A stretch of 64,000 nucleotides of DNA from Chloroflexi bacterium HGW-Chloroflexi-4 (GTDB lineage: Bacteria; Chloroflexota; Anaerolineae; Anaerolineales; Anaerolineaceae): assembly GCA_002840715.1 (NCBI GenBank), contig PHBW01000009.1, forward strand, positions 108,489 to 172,488, in the 5' to 3' direction. Below are positions 31,349 to 39,491 of the stretch, piece after piece. Position 1 is the first letter of the stretch. Each line of letters starts with the position of its first letter. Position numbers and translations under genes: made by a program. The notes under the pieces are model-generated. The model worked only from the letters and a program-made list of their open reading frames with translations. It searched no databases and was not told where the DNA came from.

Positions 31349-31378
31349 AATAACGCCCGGAAGACTCCGGGCGTTATT
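31349..31378. terminator. bidirectional terminator
   Basis: A 13-bp stem, AATAACGCCCGGA with TCCGGGCGTTATT, and loop AGAC. It sits between the convergent hemerythrin and TPR genes. Confidence 0.85.
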
Positions 31379-33709
31379 TTATTTTTTCTGATTTCTCAAT
31401 TCTTCATACAACCTGCGGTAATCGTTGCTGTTTGGCGGGTTTAACTCAATCAGGTTCTGCAGGGTTGCAAGTGCACCATCACGATTTTCCTGTCGTAAAC
31501 ATTTTTCTGCCAGGGCATCCAATTTTTCAATAATCTCTTGCTGTCTATTTTGTGTTTGATAAAAACGAATCAAGCGTTTTTGAATATCGATGTTATCAGG
31601 GCGGTCTTCCAATAAGGCGTCAAGAAAACGTTCTGAGCGTTCTTTATGGCCGGCTGTTTCAAGCAGCCTGAGGAAAGCATCCAGTTCATTCATCGCGCCT
31701 GATGGCAGACCAATGCGCAGATAAAGATCAATCAAAGTTGCACGTGTGGTGGATTCTAGTGGCTCCAAACTGCGAAGTTGTTCAAGAATTTTGATGGCCT
31801 GTTTCAGATCAAGGCTTTGAAGTTCAATATCTGCCAGTTTATTCAGGATCTGCACTGCCCAGGTGCGTGAGGTGACAGTCTTTTGCGATAGCGATAAGGC
31901 TTTTTGATAATCTGATCTTGCCAGATCCAATTCGGCCAGCAGATAATGCACATTGGCAATATCCATGTATTGCTGAACGGCTTCATCCATGCGGTTTGAA
32001 GAAATCAACAGATCTATCAACATATCCCTGACTGAAAGATCCATGGGGGCAAGTTTGGACACACGGGTTAATAGTCTTACCGCCTGGTTAGTTTCGCCTC
32101 TGACATTATAAAGATAGGCAACGAGGTTGAATTTTTCGACAGCCTCAAGAATGCGTCCTTCCATGATCAGCAGTTCACCGATTTGCACATGCAGTGGTAG
32201 ATAGGTAGGGGCGTGGGTAAGAGCATAAAACGCTTCCTCCATTGCTGTGCGGATCTTGCCTTCGGCTGCCAATTGTTTGATGAGTGCAAGAGCTTCGATC
32301 ACCTGGCTGTTAGTGGTTTCAAGAAGCATTTCCGCAAGAGGAATCGGAGGATTGCCTTCAGGCTGCTTAGGTAGTTGGCTGCGGGCTTCTTTCAAATAAT
32401 CACGCCAATCATTGCGCATGATTTGAGCTTGAATGATTTTTGTGATATTCGCCAAATCTTTTTCTTCGTTTACCCGTTCATGTGCTTCAAGGATTGGCTC
32501 GTATAATTGGGTAAGTTCATTTTCCATATCGCGCGGCACTGATAACACATCGGCAAGCTTAAGTGCTTGGAGTGCGTAAGTGCTTGAGTCTTTATATTGA
32601 CCGGCTTTTTCTTGAATTTGGGCTATTAATAAGTTTGAAGCTAAGGCGTAGGCAGGGTTTCTGACTGCTTTTTGCAGATGTTTCAATGCTTTTTGAGGGT
32701 TGGCTGAATAAGTCAACAACGCCAATACGTATTCTGCAGCAGACAGGTTAAGGCCCAGGTCTATCGCTCTTTCTAGCTCAACGGCCGCTTCGTCATCCTT
32801 GCCCGCTGTTTGCAAGTCAATAGTTCGGCTGAGGTGTGTACGAGCGCGAGACCGTTCGGCATCTTTTGAAGATAAATCGCCAGTTCCACGCAAAAGGTGA
32901 ATCTGCCGCCGCATTGGAACATGTCCATCAGCGTCTGTGGGTTCAGGTTGGTCAAACAACATGCCAGCCATTTCTTTTAGTGCAATCAATCGCGCTTCGG
33001 TGAGAGGATCATATTTTGGTAAGCTTTCTGCTGCCGGAGCAAGATTTTCAGTTTGTTTTCCTGAGGTTTTATATACTTGTCCGGGTCCAACATTGCTGGA
33101 TTGTGGCAAGGTCATTTGTTGGCCAGTTTTTAACTGCATCATGGCATTTTGAGCTGCCTGGTTTTGAGGTTCAAGACCCAAGGTATATTGCACAACCTGG
33201 CTGGCTTTTGAGATATCTCCGCTGAATTGCATTAATGCTGCTACAAATAAGTATTCGGTTACACATTCGGCTATCAATCCCATTTTGTCGTAGATCATTG
33301 CAAGGCGCATGCGCACCGTTTGATTGTTTGGATCCAAACGGATGGCTTCTTTGAAAGCTGCTATGGCATGCTCTGCGTCTCGTGCTTTGAGTTGTTTTTC
33401 TCCACATTGCATAAACGATTTAACCGCGTCGATGATCTCACCAGTGTGTTCATAAATCCGCCCCATCTTTTCGAAGGGCATTGGGTCGTCAGGAGTGATG
33501 CTTGAACAACGAAGATAAAACTTCAAAGCTTCGTCATACTGTTCAAGTTGATAGCTGGCTAAGCCGGCGCTGGCAAGTGCCATTGCATCTGTTTGGTTTT
33601 CAAGCAGTGCCTGTCGGTAGAATTCCAATGCTTTGGCCCAGTCTTGTTCCCAGGCGGCTGTGTGCCCCTGACTCATAAGGGTTTGAAATTGGGCAGATTC
33701 TTGGCTCAT
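31379..33709 (-). CDS. large TPR-repeat protein
   Basis: A 776-residue soluble protein made mostly of tetratricopeptide repeats. The N-terminal block (about 5-185) has clear TPR helices (WEQDWAKALEFYRQALLEN, HAIAAFKEAIRLDPNNQTVR). A polar linker (190-230) follows, and then more repeats to the C terminus (about 300-770). There is no signal peptide or membrane helix, and no catalytic domain is visible. Probably a scaffold for protein-protein contact. It follows polA with a 21-base gap on the same strand. Confidence 0.8.
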   Translation of the reverse strand: MSQESAQFQTLMSQGHTAAWEQDWAKALEFYRQALLENQTDAMALASAGLASYQLEQYDEALKFYLRCSSITPDDPMPFEKMGRIYEHTGEIIDAVKSFMQCGEKQLKARDAEHAIAAFKEAIRLDPNNQTVRMRLAMIYDKMGLIAECVTEYLFVAALMQFSGDISKASQVVQYTLGLEPQNQAAQNAMMQLKTGQQMTLPQSSNVGPGQVYKTSGKQTENLAPAAESLPKYDPLTEARLIALKEMAGMLFDQPEPTDADGHVPMRRQIHLLRGTGDLSSKDAERSRARTHLSRTIDLQTAGKDDEAAVELERAIDLGLNLSAAEYVLALLTYSANPQKALKHLQKAVRNPAYALASNLLIAQIQEKAGQYKDSSTYALQALKLADVLSVPRDMENELTQLYEPILEAHERVNEEKDLANITKIIQAQIMRNDWRDYLKEARSQLPKQPEGNPPIPLAEMLLETTNSQVIEALALIKQLAAEGKIRTAMEEAFYALTHAPTYLPLHVQIGELLIMEGRILEAVEKFNLVAYLYNVRGETNQAVRLLTRVSKLAPMDLSVRDMLIDLLISSNRMDEAVQQYMDIANVHYLLAELDLARSDYQKALSLSQKTVTSRTWAVQILNKLADIELQSLDLKQAIKILEQLRSLEPLESTTRATLIDLYLRIGLPSGAMNELDAFLRLLETAGHKERSERFLDALLEDRPDNIDIQKRLIRFYQTQNRQQEIIEKLDALAEKCLRQENRDGALATLQNLIELNPPNSNDYRRLYEELRNQKK

Positions 33710-33730: not shown

Positions 33731-36517
33731 TCAATTTATTAACACTTGCATGCTTCCCCAATTAATGCCGCTTCTGGCTTCGGTCAGAAGGGGAATAGAC
33801 AATTGATAGGCTTCAGACATGACACTTTGAACTACTATAGCAGTATCGGCCAATTCGCCTTCGGGTACATCCAGAACCAGCTCATCGTGAACTTGAAGCA
33901 AAATTTTTGCCTGCAAATTTTTGGCTTTGAGCGCCGGCGGTAGCTGGATCAATGCTAGTTTCATAATATCTGCAGCCGTGCCCTGGATGGGTGCGTTAAT
34001 GGCTTCTCTTTCTTCACGGTTCTTCATGTTGACGTTAATTGGATTGGCCAGGTTGGGGAAGTAACGCCTTCTCCCAAGCATGGTTTCAACATAACCCTGA
34101 CGGGTCGCTAAGATGCGGATGTTATCGAGATAACTCTTTACACCTGGAAAGTTTTCAAAATAACCTTTCACAAAATTCTCTGCTTCACCGAGTGTCAGGT
34201 CTGTCGAACGGCTCAAGCCAAACGCGCTCATGCCATAAATCAAACCAAAATTAATGGCTTTGGCATGCCTTCGTTGATCTTTAGTAACTTCTTCAAGTGA
34301 AATGCCATTAATGGCAGCGGCTGTCGCCGCATGAATATCCTGACCGGCACGGAAGGCATTTAACATGGCTTCGTCACCAGACATGTGGGCAACAATACGC
34401 AATTCAATCTGTGAATAATCCACTGACAATAGCTTGCAGCCGGGTGAAGCTTTGAACCCCAGGCGCACCTGACGGCCAATCTCGGTGCGGGTGGGGATGT
34501 TCTGCAAATTGGGGTCAATTGAAGCCAACCGCCCGGTGACTGAACCAGTTTGATTGAAATTGGTATGCACCCTGCTTGTGCGCGGGTTCACCTGAAGAGG
34601 CAGTGAATCGAGGTAGGTTGATTTTAATTTTGCCAACTCGCGGTATTCGAGCAGCAGGTCTACAACCGGGTGCTTGCCGCTCAGTTCATCCAAAACTGCT
34701 GCTGAGGTCGAAAAATGACCGCTTGCGGTTTTCTTGTTGCGGTCTGGTGGAATCAACCGCAGCGTTTCAAACAGTACTTTTGAGAGCTGCTGGGTCGAAT
34801 TGAGGTTGAAGGGATAACCAACTGCCTGATAAACCTGGTCTTCAATTTCTCTTAGCCTGATATTCATTTCACCGCTGAATTTCTTGAAGAATTCAATATC
34901 CAGCGATATGCCGTTACGTTCCATTTGCATCAAAACAGGTACCAGCGGCATCTCGATTTCTTTGAAAATTTTGGTGCACTTGCGGTCTTCCATTTTCTTT
35001 TCAACCAGAGGAGCCAGTCTGAAGGTAACTTCGGCATCCGCGGCAGCATAGGGCGCGGCAGATTCAACCAGCACCTGGTCCATTGTGATTTGGGTTTTGC
35101 CTTTGCCAATCAATTCTTCAATGTGGGTCATACTGGCATTGAGATAATCGGCGGCCATATCTTTTAGCCCCAGATTGTGTGAAGAGGGGTCAATCAACCA
35201 TTCAGCCAGCATGGTGTCAAATGAAAGCGGATAAACCTCAAGGCCGTAATTGCCCAAGACAAGGGCATCATATTTAATATTGTGACCGATCTTTTCGATT
35301 TTTGCATCTGTAAAAGCCGGTTTGATCGCTTGAATAACATCTGTTACAGGCAATTGGGCAGTCAAGCCAGTATGACCTACAGGGATATAATACCCAGTGC
35401 CTTCCTTGACCGATACAGATATCCCCACCAAATCTGCTTTAAGCGGATCGGTTGATGTCGTCTCGGTATCAAAAGCTATTTTAGTTGAATTTGACAATAC
35501 AACGGCCAATTCATTAAGTTTTTCGGGTGAGTTGACGATCACGGTTTCCAACGAATATTGTGAAGGCACGCTGATCTCTTGAACATTGCTTGCAAAGAGG
35601 TTCATTTGACCCTTTAGTGCGGCCTTAACAAAGGGAGCCGCGACTGTATGTAAACGCGTGACCAGCGTGCGGAATTCCAGTTCTCTAAAGAGGGCTTCAA
35701 CCGCAGCAATATTGATGTGGTCGGTTCTCGCATCCTCAAGTTTTAAAGTGATGCCGACATCCGTTTTAATTCTTGCAAGCGTCTGACTCATATAGGCTGA
35801 CTCTTTACCTTCGGCAATCTTGACGCCCATTTTGCCCGGAATCTCAGCCACGTGCGCATAGATTTCATCCAACGTTTTATACTGTTCCAAAAGGTTGACG
35901 GCTGTTTTTTGACCAACACCCGGCACACCGGGGATATTATCTGAAGTGTCGCCAACCAAGGCCTTATAATCCACGACTTGGTCGGGACTCACTCCCAGAT
36001 AGGCTTTCACATCTTCGGCCGTGTAGTTCTTGGCTTCTGAAATTTTTGTTCCAGACAGGGCAACTACAATGCGGTCATTCACCAGTTGCAGCAGATCGCG
36101 GTCTCCGGTGATGATCTTGACGCCGAATCCTTGTTCCACAGCTTGATATGCGATCGTCCCGAGGATGTCATCTGCTTCAACGCCTTCCTGTTCAAGACGG
36201 GGCAGGTGAAATGCATCCACCAGTTGACGAATGCGGTCAATTTGCGGACGCAAGTCATCCGGCATTTTGGCGCGCGTGGCTTTGTATCCCGGGAACAAAT
36301 CATTGCGGAATGTTTTTCCGGTGTCGAAGGCAACCGCCAGATATTCCGGTCTTTCCTGTTCCAGCAGGCGCATCATCACATTGGCGAATCCCAAAATCCC
36401 GGCCGTGGGTTCGCCAGATTTTGTTTGTAAACGTTCACTGCCTGCTCCAGCGGTCAGGGCAAAGTACGCACGATAGGCCAGGGCATGTCCGTCGATTAAA
36501 TAGAGAACTGGGGGCAT
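33731..36517 (-). CDS. polA: DNA polymerase I
   Basis: A 928-residue, three-domain DNA polymerase I. The 5' nuclease is at about 1-290 (LIDGHALAYRAYFA, VEADDILGT, GDRDLLQLV, GVPGVGQKTA). The 3'-5' exonuclease at about 320-510 keeps its acidic residues: DTETTS, GHNIKYDAL and YAAADAEVTF. The polymerase has motif A LSVDYSQIELRI, motif B RRHAKAINFGLIYG and motif C LLQVHDELVLDVP. All three activities are therefore expected, for gap repair and Okazaki fragment processing. The long ORFs on the opposite strand are shadows. Confidence 0.96.
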   Translation of the reverse strand: MPPVLYLIDGHALAYRAYFALTAGAGSERLQTKSGEPTAGILGFANVMMRLLEQERPEYLAVAFDTGKTFRNDLFPGYKATRAKMPDDLRPQIDRIRQLVDAFHLPRLEQEGVEADDILGTIAYQAVEQGFGVKIITGDRDLLQLVNDRIVVALSGTKISEAKNYTAEDVKAYLGVSPDQVVDYKALVGDTSDNIPGVPGVGQKTAVNLLEQYKTLDEIYAHVAEIPGKMGVKIAEGKESAYMSQTLARIKTDVGITLKLEDARTDHINIAAVEALFRELEFRTLVTRLHTVAAPFVKAALKGQMNLFASNVQEISVPSQYSLETVIVNSPEKLNELAVVLSNSTKIAFDTETTSTDPLKADLVGISVSVKEGTGYYIPVGHTGLTAQLPVTDVIQAIKPAFTDAKIEKIGHNIKYDALVLGNYGLEVYPLSFDTMLAEWLIDPSSHNLGLKDMAADYLNASMTHIEELIGKGKTQITMDQVLVESAAPYAAADAEVTFRLAPLVEKKMEDRKCTKIFKEIEMPLVPVLMQMERNGISLDIEFFKKFSGEMNIRLREIEDQVYQAVGYPFNLNSTQQLSKVLFETLRLIPPDRNKKTASGHFSTSAAVLDELSGKHPVVDLLLEYRELAKLKSTYLDSLPLQVNPRTSRVHTNFNQTGSVTGRLASIDPNLQNIPTRTEIGRQVRLGFKASPGCKLLSVDYSQIELRIVAHMSGDEAMLNAFRAGQDIHAATAAAINGISLEEVTKDQRRHAKAINFGLIYGMSAFGLSRSTDLTLGEAENFVKGYFENFPGVKSYLDNIRILATRQGYVETMLGRRRYFPNLANPINVNMKNREEREAINAPIQGTAADIMKLALIQLPPALKAKNLQAKILLQVHDELVLDVPEGELADTAIVVQSVMSEAYQLSIPLLTEARSGINWGSMQVLIN

Positions 36518-36542: not shown

Positions 36543-38015
36543 TCAGAGAGCGGCTGCTTCGGGGGTCTTCCAGGCATCATTTACAAAATCAAAGATCAAA
36601 TTCGCTTGAGCTGGTTCTGACCCGCTAACCGCCAGATAATTAGATGACCAGAAATCGTTGGAGGTTTTGACCTTGGCGATTTCGGGGAAATTTGCAAAAA
36701 TTGAATTTGATGTTAAATTACGTACTTCTTGCATGATCTGGTTTGGACATACACCAAAACGAACAGCAACAGTCCAAAGCAGGTATTGCGGTCGGATCGT
36801 GATGCTGGTCATCTTCCAACCCTGGTCTTCATGGATGTCTGGCATGATCGTACTGAGTTTGTCAGAAAGGTTTTTAGTCAAAAAATGGTTGTGATCTCCG
36901 GGCATTAAAACCAGTGTGTAGTTGAAGCGAAAATCTTTCAAACTCGGAGGGGTAGATGACGTTTCTGTTTCTTGGGTTGCCATTGATTCAGATACAGTTA
37001 ACGCAGCCGATTCAACCATTGCAGGCATCGTTTCAGTGCTTTTTTCCACTTGCGGGCTAACGGTCTCCAGAACTTCGGCGAATGTAGCTGCGGCAGGCTT
37101 TAATGCTTCAATTTCAGTTTGAAGCACCGGTTCAGCAACTTGCACTGGCTGATTATTTACATTTTCTAGAATTTCATCAGACTTGGGTTCAACAGTTTGA
37201 GTGCTAAGATTTTCTGTGGCAACTTTAACGGTATTTTCTTCATCTTCCCAAGGCAGTTTGAAGTCAATCTCGGGCAGAGGTTCACCTTTTTCAATGGCAG
37301 ATTTCAGACTCTCATCAATTACTAAAAAAGGAGGAATTCCAGCAGGAACACTGTCTTCGGCTGGACGCGGCTGTGTATTATCCGACGGTTGAGCCATTGT
37401 TGCATTATCTGCGGTTTCGAGTTCAGTTAACCATTCGGGAAGTTTCTTTTCTTCAACCGCAATTTCTGCTCCGGGTTGTGGGTCTGGGTCAGGCATTTGG
37501 TCAAGCATTTTGGTTAACTCCGCTAATTCCTGTTCACTGATATTGGAGGGGTTTTCTGCTTCAGCTTTTAAGGATTCTTGCTCGGTCAGACCAAGTGCAT
37601 CTAGATCAATTTGAGAAACATCATTGGCAGCAATAGTTGCTTTGTTTAAGGATTCCTGCTCAAATAATTTTCGGGCAGCTATTTCTGTTTCAGAGAGATC
37701 ATTTGTTTGAGGCCGCGAATTTGTTTCCTGCATGGCTTTTAATAAATCAATCTCTTCCTGTGAGATACCATTGATCGCCGGTTTTGGTTTGATTGATTCC
37801 TGTTCAAATAACTTGCGTGCTTCAATTTCTGCTTGAGAAACAGCATCCACGGATGGTGGCGCTGGTTCATTTTGCATGGCTTTCAACAAATCAATTTCTT
37901 CTTGTGAAATGGCAGCGATTGTTGGTTTGGGTTTTATTGATTCCTGTTCAAACAGCTTGCGTGCTTCCTTCCAACTCTGCCTGAGATACAGCATCCACGG
38001 CAGGGGCTGGTTCAT
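36543..38015 (-). CDS. C-terminal part of a split repeat protein; ends in inactive IS200/Y1-like domain
   Basis: A 490-residue frame continuing the repeats of the upstream ORF after a 4-bp frameshift. It carries about three more copies of a 47-48-residue unit (EARKLFEQES ... ISQEEIDLLKAM), an acidic linker of about 200 residues, and a final domain (about 365-480). That domain aligns by eye with IS200-type Y1 transposases: FNYTLVLMPGDHNHFL, ITIRPQYLLWTVAV in place of the DHxH strand, VRNLTSNSIFANFPEI, NDFWSSNYLAVSGS. The HUH histidines are QYL here and the catalytic tyrosine is F (FDFVND), so it cannot act as a transposase. The nominal ATG at 38015 is probably not used. Confidence 0.6.
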   Translation of the reverse strand: MNQPLPWMLYLRQSWKEARKLFEQESIKPKPTIAAISQEEIDLLKAMQNEPAPPSVDAVSQAEIEARKLFEQESIKPKPAINGISQEEIDLLKAMQETNSRPQTNDLSETEIAARKLFEQESLNKATIAANDVSQIDLDALGLTEQESLKAEAENPSNISEQELAELTKMLDQMPDPDPQPGAEIAVEEKKLPEWLTELETADNATMAQPSDNTQPRPAEDSVPAGIPPFLVIDESLKSAIEKGEPLPEIDFKLPWEDEENTVKVATENLSTQTVEPKSDEILENVNNQPVQVAEPVLQTEIEALKPAAATFAEVLETVSPQVEKSTETMPAMVESAALTVSESMATQETETSSTPPSLKDFRFNYTLVLMPGDHNHFLTKNLSDKLSTIMPDIHEDQGWKMTSITIRPQYLLWTVAVRFGVCPNQIMQEVRNLTSNSIFANFPEIAKVKTSNDFWSSNYLAVSGSEPAQANLIFDFVNDAWKTPEAAAL

Positions 38016-38412
38016 TCTGCATGGTTTTCAACAAATCAATTTCTTCTTGAGAAATGGCGGTGATTGTGGGTTTTGGTTTGACCGATTCCTGTTCAAACAG
38101 CTTACGAGCTTCCAACTCTGCCTGAGCCACGGCATCAACGGCGGTTGGTTGAGGAGAATCTTGCAAAGCTTTCAACAAGTCAATTTCTTCTTGAGAAATG
38201 GCAGCGATTGTAGGTTTTGGTTTGACTGATTCCTGTTCAAACAGCTTGCGTGCTTCCAACTCAGCCTGCGATACAGCATCCCCTGCAGGTAGTTGAGGAG
38301 AGTCTTGCAAGGCTTTTAATAAGTCAATTTCTTCTTGAGAAATCGTATTAATTTCAGGTTTTGGTTTTGACTTAAGAGATTCCTGTTCAAACAACTTGCG
38401 CGCTTCAATTTC
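37600..38412 (-). repeat. tandem 141-144-bp coding repeats
   Basis: About six copies, each coding 47-48 residues starting EARKLFEQES and containing ISQEEIDLLKA. Copies start near 38412, 38255, 38112, 37968, 37825 and 37684 (minus strand). The first and last are the most divergent and the middle four are close to identical, which points to recent amplification. Confidence 0.8.
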
Positions 38413-39360
38413 GGCTTGAGTACCCTCTACAGAGAGCGTATTTTGAGTGGATGCTTCCATTTGATCCAATACATCAATATCGCTTTGTGAAAAAGTATTG
38501 GCACTTATTTGCAGTGACTCGAGCTGTTTGTTTCTTGTGTTGATTTCAACCAGCGTATGTTTGGCAATATCCTGCCTTAATTCTCCGGTTGTTGGATAGT
38601 TCTGCTGGAAATTGTTTTTAACTTTATTTAATTCACGCCGAACCATTTGTAAGGTGGCATTCATTGGGTACACCATCACCAAAACAACATTGTTCACTAG
38701 CTTGGTGGTATACAAAAATCGATTTGAACCGTCGCCATCAAGTTTTATATAACGGGCCAACTCGCTGTTCTCTTCATCTTTCCAATAGCGTGACAAAAAG
38801 CCTGTAACGTTTTGAACCAGACCATTATCCAATGAACCGGCACTGGCAATTAATTGATCTTTAATGATGATTAATACGGTTTGCGAAGTGGTGGCTTTGA
38901 GGATTTGTTCCGCTTTTCTTCCGCCGGTTTCAGGGATTTGAAGCCACTGCTTGACCAGGTCATCAATCACCTTGACTTGAACATTATTTGGCAAAGGTTG
39001 ATCAGAAAACAAGCTTGATAATGCTTTCCCAATTTCCTGGCCTGAAAAAGGTTTGCTTAAATAACCATTGACAGACAGCCCATCCAACACCGGGTGTTGG
39101 GGGTTGTTGTCAGGCGGAAAAACCAAAATTTTTAAATCGGATTGTAAAGCGGTAAGATCACGGGTGAATGCAGCAACTGGAATGTCATCCAGTTCTCCAT
39201 CCACAATGGCGACTTCAAAAAAATTGCTATTGGCCAAATTTAATGCTTCATGAGCACTTAATGCGACTGAAACTTGATAACGCCCACCCTCTTCAAGGTG
39301 AGAACGTAATTGTTGCAAAAATTCAGTATCAGGTGAAACGAGTAAGATTACACGTTGCAT
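37948..39360 (-). CDS. receiver/roadblock-like/repeat protein, N-terminal part of a split gene
   Basis: A 470-residue frame. Residues 1-115 are a receiver domain with an acceptor aspartate in VAIVDGELDD and the conserved lysine in YLSKPFSGQE. Residues about 125-265 look like a roadblock/LC7-type domain (VLIIIKDQLIASAGS, VNNVVLVMVYPMNATL). After 300 come three 47-48-residue repeats. The frame ends abruptly after a 4-base duplication, TTCC repeated at 37965-37972. Without it the protein would run on to 36543 and be about 940 residues. It may be a pseudogene, a phase-variable gene, or a sequence error. Confidence 0.65.
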   Translation of the reverse strand: MQRVILLVSPDTEFLQQLRSHLEEGGRYQVSVALSAHEALNLANSNFFEVAIVDGELDDIPVAAFTRDLTALQSDLKILVFPPDNNPQHPVLDGLSVNGYLSKPFSGQEIGKALSSLFSDQPLPNNVQVKVIDDLVKQWLQIPETGGRKAEQILKATTSQTVLIIIKDQLIASAGSLDNGLVQNVTGFLSRYWKDEENSELARYIKLDGDGSNRFLYTTKLVNNVVLVMVYPMNATLQMVRRELNKVKNNFQQNYPTTGELRQDIAKHTLVEINTRNKQLESLQISANTFSQSDIDVLDQMEASTQNTLSVEGTQAEIEARKLFEQESLKSKPKPEINTISQEEIDLLKALQDSPQLPAGDAVSQAELEARKLFEQESVKPKPTIAAISQEEIDLLKALQDSPQPTAVDAVAQAELEARKLFEQESVKPKPTITAISQEEIDLLKTMQNEPAPAVDAVSQAELEGSTQAV

Positions 39361-39491
39361 GTAAAAAGTGTATCACGGCGTTATTATCGATGCAAGCAAT
39401 ATTCCATGCGTGCGGCTAAGGATTTTGATAACCTCCCCAAGCCTGTCATCCTGTGGCATAATCACTAAATCTTTACTTCAGAGGAAATATT

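Follow-up and report, generated by a model that had tools for sequence, protein, structure and literature searches.

The window, a stretch of 64,000 nucleotides from Chloroflexi bacterium HGW-Chloroflexi-4, carries a signalling gene on the minus strand that ends in a domain related to IS200/IS605 transposases and lies directly before polA (Table 1). The assembly presents the gene in two pieces. An ORF of 490 aa is present at 36543-38015 (-), and the receiver and roadblock-like (RB) domains are encoded not by this ORF but by the preceding one (37948-39360, -), which overlaps it in a different frame. An extra GGAA unit is found at ~37965-37972, where the window reads GGAAGGAAGC compared with GGAAGC in the adjacent repeats. 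Four close relatives (L035-L038) carry a single uninterrupted gene of 887-1094 aa, and the true gene therefore spans approximately 36543-39360. The 4-bp duplication in the window may be a genuine change or an artefact of assembly.

Table 1. Features of the signalling gene and its surroundings, in window positions.
Feature	Position	Strand	Basis
Terminator-like hairpin, strong and bidirectional, closing the unit	31349..31378	-	consensus scan
TPR protein, 776 aa, after polA	31379..33709	-	neighbour conserved in 32/45 loci
polA, DNA polymerase I, 928 aa, 26 bp downstream of the signalling gene	33731..36517	-	
psiY1, non-catalytic Y1 (IS200 TnpA-like) domain, last 129 aa of the gene	36546..36932	-	PF01797 43 bits; AlphaFold pLDDT 93; VIA Z 16.0 to 2fyx
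Catalytic tyrosine position, Phe	36585..36587	-	alignment columns
HUH position, Y-L-L, metal-binding histidines absent	36777..36785	-	alignment columns; coordinates derived from residue numbers
Low-complexity linker with repeats ISQEEIDLLKAMQ / AELEARKLFEQES and conserved MLDQMPDPDP motif	36933..38598	-	ORF sequence, motif counts
4-bp tandem duplication GGAAGGAA, causing a frameshift that divides the gene in the assembly	37965..37972	-	comparison with adjacent repeat units; L035-L038 intact
Roadblock/longin-like (RB) domain	38599..38967	-	family-built profile; structure model; Foldseek to MglB 6hjm, Rag GTPases
Receiver domain, Asp54 and Lys103 kept	39001..39360	-	Pfam Response_reg 29.9 bits vs cutoff 30.2; Z 19.2 to 3crn
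Promoter-like TTGCAT-17-TACACT, 7 bp 5' of ATG, conserved in six genomes	39368..39396	-	by eye in alignment; scan did not call it
Bipartite block TATGCCACAGGAT-N6-CTTGGGGAGG, candidate operator	39432..39460	-	alignment of six genomes; one copy in genome

The Y1-like domain and its catalytic positions

The last 129 aa of the gene, here called psiY1, match the Pfam family Y1_Tnp (PF01797; E 6e-11, 43 bits, cutoff 23), and a plain sequence search with the domain recovers the solved Y1 transposase 2fyx at E 1e-4. Diverse psiY1 domains searched alone match PF01797 in 57 of 58 cases. The copy in the window stays below the cutoff of NCBIfam NF033573 (37 vs 55 bits). An AlphaFold model built from 33 family members has a mean pLDDT of 93. 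Foldseek places Y1 transposases at each of ranks 1-29 for this model (2ec2 at E 5e-9), and VIA aligns it to 2fyx_A (TnpA DR_0177) with Z 16.0 and an rmsd of 2.4 over 122 residues, against a background of Z 7-8 for unrelated folds. psiY1 thus shares the profile and whole-domain fold of IS200/IS605 TnpA proteins (PF01797, NF033573; solved for IS608, ISDra2 and DR_0177), including the final helix at the Tyr position and a conserved core W.

The residues of the active site have been lost. The HUH position in the window lies within RPQYLLW, and the metal-binding Gln at +4 is absent. An alignment residue tally found HxH in none of 97 fusions, compared with 21 of 23 comparison Y1 proteins (21 standalone and two longer ones). 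The Tyr position across the fusions is occupied by Phe in 64 and by Tyr in 29, never together with HxH, and most of them lack Gln at +4. For both the identity of psiY1 and its loss of catalysis, the certainty is close to the most that sequence analysis can give. The 29 fusions retaining Tyr might suggest that psiY1 is still catalytic with an altered active site. However, no fusion has HxH, Gln at +4 is missing from most and the window has Phe. Cleavage by HUH enzymes requires a metal held by the HUH motif, and TnpA_REP is inactive once its Tyr is mutated to Phe (PMC8266576). We consider retained catalysis very improbable.

An earlier, sequence-only reading had recognised by eye a Y1 TnpA-like region in the C-terminal ~115 residues, and profile and Foldseek checks of the final residues found both the Y1_Tnp similarity and the Y1 fold. 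The alignment column of the window likewise confirms its replacement of the catalytic tyrosine by phenylalanine. The sequence-only reading was right about the loss of the HUH histidines and one residue off in reading QYL instead of Y-L-L. The profile match, the predicted structure, the residue counts, the tree and dN/dS all back its proposal of a domesticated, non-catalytic domain. The proposed chain of receiver, roadblock and repeats ending in Y1 is borne out, except that the receiver and roadblock-like parts lie in the previous ORF.

An IS200/IS605 insertion sequence is recognised by a short standalone tnpA, often multicopy, whereas psiY1 is the C-terminal domain of a signalling protein encoded by a fusion gene, mostly with one copy per genome. 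Unlike TnpA, psiY1 has no HUH motif and mostly lacks the catalytic Tyr, Gln at +4 and the basic surface. No tnpB was found among the neighbouring genes scanned with Pfam. TnpA_REP (RAYT) proteins, class 2 in a survey of TnpA_Y1, are low-copy, housekeeping-like domesticated Y1 relatives, as is the psiY1 family (PMC6006769). RAYTs, which are recognised by a HuH/Y core with a Y---NP signature, still possess HuH and Tyr and have REP hairpins as their substrates, whereas the fusions have lost the core residues. In its main text, the survey takes the HuH/Y core to be common to every TnpA_Y1 protein, and the term 'response regulator' does not occur there (PMC6006769). We found no description of a receiver and Y1 fusion in the open-access literature, whose silence is no proof of novelty. 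The same genome also contains another Y1 match, below threshold and interrupted by a stop (contig C33:38509-38673, L189), which is probably a transposase remnant.

Distribution, selection and origin

The 129-aa query matched 44 of 61 genomes, with one copy in all but one. Profile searches across the class and phylum returned two types of matches, long fusions and standalone transposases of 120-180 aa that are often multicopy. Genuine transposases were set apart by ORF length and HUH residues. The long fusions are found in the class Anaerolineae; among the matches listed beyond the class, nearly all are short. Pfam detects both Response_reg and Y1_Tnp in representatives from several families, and the further receiver and Y1 fusions in Chloroflexota that the sequence-only reading had suggested looking for turned out to be many.

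Pairwise Nei-Gojobori dN/dS in close relatives was ~0.06-0.13 for psiY1 where dS was measurable, compared with ~0.02-0.04 for polA, all rough values given that dS is near saturation. These estimates show that psiY1 is under purifying selection in close relatives. In a tree resting on few alignment columns, a branch (91/94) leaves the active Y1 proteins together on one side; this is compatible with one origin of the dead Y1 form without proving it. Purifying selection and the tree together fit an old domestication of Y1. The frameshift in the window assembly might be taken as a sign of chance resemblance or of a transposon insertion decaying in a signalling gene. This reading is already contradicted, as the fusion is intact, selected and conserved across the class Anaerolineae and its fold is confirmed, and we give it practically no credence.

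Receiver-RB (Rec-RB) proteins of ~255-360 aa without a Y1 match were recovered from further Anaerolineae by an RB profile search. Such proteins lie directly upstream of polA in L169, L171, L176, L180 and L187, and an RB-only ORF precedes polA in L184. The pairing of Rec-RB with polA is hence broader than psiY1, and psiY1 was either grafted onto Rec-RB or lost from it. Nine genomes of the family represented in the window lacked a first-round match; one of them, L195, carries a diverged member, whereas polA is present without the gene in several. In L194, the gene is missing and polA and the divergent dehydrogenase gene are still in place. The gene is dispensable and not needed by Pol I, since it is absent at polA in several relatives.

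Two families show departures from the common arrangement. Family f12 carries short psiY1 paralogs without receiver and without HUH, which nest inside the fusions in the tree and adjoin an Mrr-type restriction endonuclease. The cassette of psiY1 paralog, Mrr, a homologous second gene and a third gene is repeated (L110:3733-8500, L112:1-4547, L113:3372-7999, L067:1963-8199). In L113, the second gene encodes a TPR protein and the third a histidine kinase; in L067, one additional ORF lies in between. Family f49 has a compact Rec-RB-psiY1 protein of 379-392 aa (L141:3229-6970, L142:6643-10392, L143:3518-7199, L144:2-3157), directly 3' of a conserved gene whose product combines lamin-tail and endonuclease/exonuclease/phosphatase domains.

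Signalling domains and the polA neighbourhood

The receiver of the window narrowly misses the Pfam cutoff (Table 1), which several relatives pass, and its model closely matches 3crn. The acidic pair reads S-P-D and the Thr/Ser position is Phe. Asp54 is kept in 32 of 36 receivers and Lys103 in 23 of 36, with the acidic pair and Thr/Ser mostly lost. The domain may therefore be a weak or pseudo-receiver, with phosphorylation uncertain. Response regulators with unusual outputs likewise combine an N-terminal receiver with a C-terminal output and a mostly conserved phospho-Asp. What differs here is the output, a dead transposase fold, the roadblock-like domain in between and the predominant loss of the acidic pair and Thr/Ser.

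The RB domain is not named by Pfam, and a match to CCB2_CCB4 was rejected as below cutoff. A family-built RB profile gave 91 matches in long members, and Foldseek links the model to MglB (6hjm, probability 1.00) and Rag-type roadblocks. The predicted fold resembles that of Roadblock/LC7 domains (MglB, the C-terminal domain of Rag GTPases); however, there is no Pfam roadblock match and no small GTPase among the neighbouring genes scanned.

The polA gene of the window is the sole family A polymerase found in the genome. Of 44 loci in Anaerolineales, 37 have polA on the same strand and at most 250 bp downstream; at the other seven it is further downstream (four), beyond the contig end (one) or not found (two). 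Other families have polA adjacent in 14 of 31 loci, further away in two, cut off in two and not found in 13. From gene order, the polA link is strong within Anaerolineales and partial outside. We infer that the signalling gene is co-transcribed with polA and the TPR gene, and the position of the promoter-like element indicates that the mRNA is probably leaderless. Adjacency by itself is no proof that the protein acts together with Pol I. It might instead be a local regulator of another pathway, such as polarity or envelope, with polA adjacency reflecting an old gene order. The resemblance of RB to MglB and Rag-type roadblock structures, the several loci outside Anaerolineales that are not at polA and the envelope-sugar genes divergently upstream in the group of the window would all agree with this. 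It is countered by the short gaps to polA at most loci and by polA staying as neighbour while the upstream genes change between genera. We regard such a local role as unlikely.

Surface charge, upstream DNA and possible functions

Beyond the active site, psiY1 has changed on its surface. In a joint alignment, active Y1 proteins have a mean net charge of +5.8, compared with +0.6 in Anaerolineales fusions, -5.2 in other fusions and -2 in the window. Position 13 is R in 90% of active Y1 proteins and in at most 4% of fusions, and position 14 falls from 86% basic to at most 19%. Basic residues are also strongly reduced at positions 75, 85 and 86, with Arg/Lys at positions 11 and 70 and the C-terminal Arg largely kept. 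The loss of basic positions and the low net charge argue against ordinary hairpin binding by psiY1, which could still bind in an altered mode. The DNA or RNA hairpin binder proposed in the sequence-only reading is accordingly weakened, with most conserved basic residues gone and an average charge that is approximately neutral or acidic.

A role as a reader of nucleic acids nonetheless carries some weight. psiY1 would bind a DNA or RNA hairpin uncut and either repress its own polA operon or recruit Pol I to single strands that carry structure. Hairpin binding is known for Y1 TnpA proteins (PMC5934647), psiY1 retains the few basic residues listed above, and psiY1 genes adjoin polA, Mrr nucleases or a gene of the endonuclease/phosphatase family. 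The unique bipartite block upstream of the gene's own promoter could be a target. The block lies between the operon of the window and a divergent sugar-nucleotide dehydrogenase gene and is invariant apart from its variable middle in six close genomes, to which it is confined. Dispersed REP-like copies of the block were rejected given its single copy in the genome, and the upstream hairpin was rejected as a conserved target, as it shows no covariation and is restricted to the same six genomes. Together with the depleted basic surface, this makes the reader doubtful, although it ranks slightly above the local regulator.

The reading we tentatively prefer is a signalling scaffold linked to Pol I, which we would put at slightly below even chances. 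The chain of receiver, roadblock-like domain, a disordered linker with short motifs and psiY1 would form a class-wide Anaerolineae scaffold. The receiver and RB domains would receive a signal or make contacts, and psiY1 would be the output module, forming dimers or contacting proteins, given that the fold core is kept and most of the conserved basic surface is lost. TnpA functions as a dimer, and its active site is assembled in trans (PMC5934647); dimerisation could thus outlast catalysis and is a function that psiY1 might retain. The protein would influence how much DNA polymerase I is present, where it acts or what it associates with in repair or replication, suggesting a putative, unstudied regulator of these processes. 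Approximately half of the loci outside Anaerolineales lie away from polA, which speaks against the scaffold, as do the absence of the gene at polA in several relatives, the atypical receiver and the frameshift in the window assembly. A more elaborate version of the reader seems improbable to us. The dead transposase domain would read DNA or RNA structure under control by phosphorylation and direct Pol I to particular single-stranded structures, and the duplicated copies beside Mrr and TPR/kinase genes would represent a second, defence- or repair-like use.

Known Y1 domestications such as RAYTs retain the cutting chemistry, which is gone here in every fusion examined. The family offers a testable case of a transposase fold turned into a regulatory or scaffold domain and may represent a route by which signals reach Pol I in Chloroflexota. 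It also cautions that genes annotated as 'IS200 transposase' can be core signalling genes.

In the linkers, the motif LLxxhPxPDP is found in 31 of 93 proteins (0.04 expected from shuffles) and P[LI][PA]xW in 16 proteins (0.55 expected), counts that are not independent among related proteins. The persistence of such motifs in otherwise unalignable linkers suggests candidate protein partners. FliM-like ISQEEIDLL repeats occur in nine proteins (0.24 expected) and were dropped as a general mechanism, being confined to these nine though far above chance. The repeats ISQEEIDLLKAM and LTQEEISAMFAQ may resemble the CheY-binding N-terminal peptide of FliM; they are present in the group of the window and, apparently separately, in L056:7747-10635.
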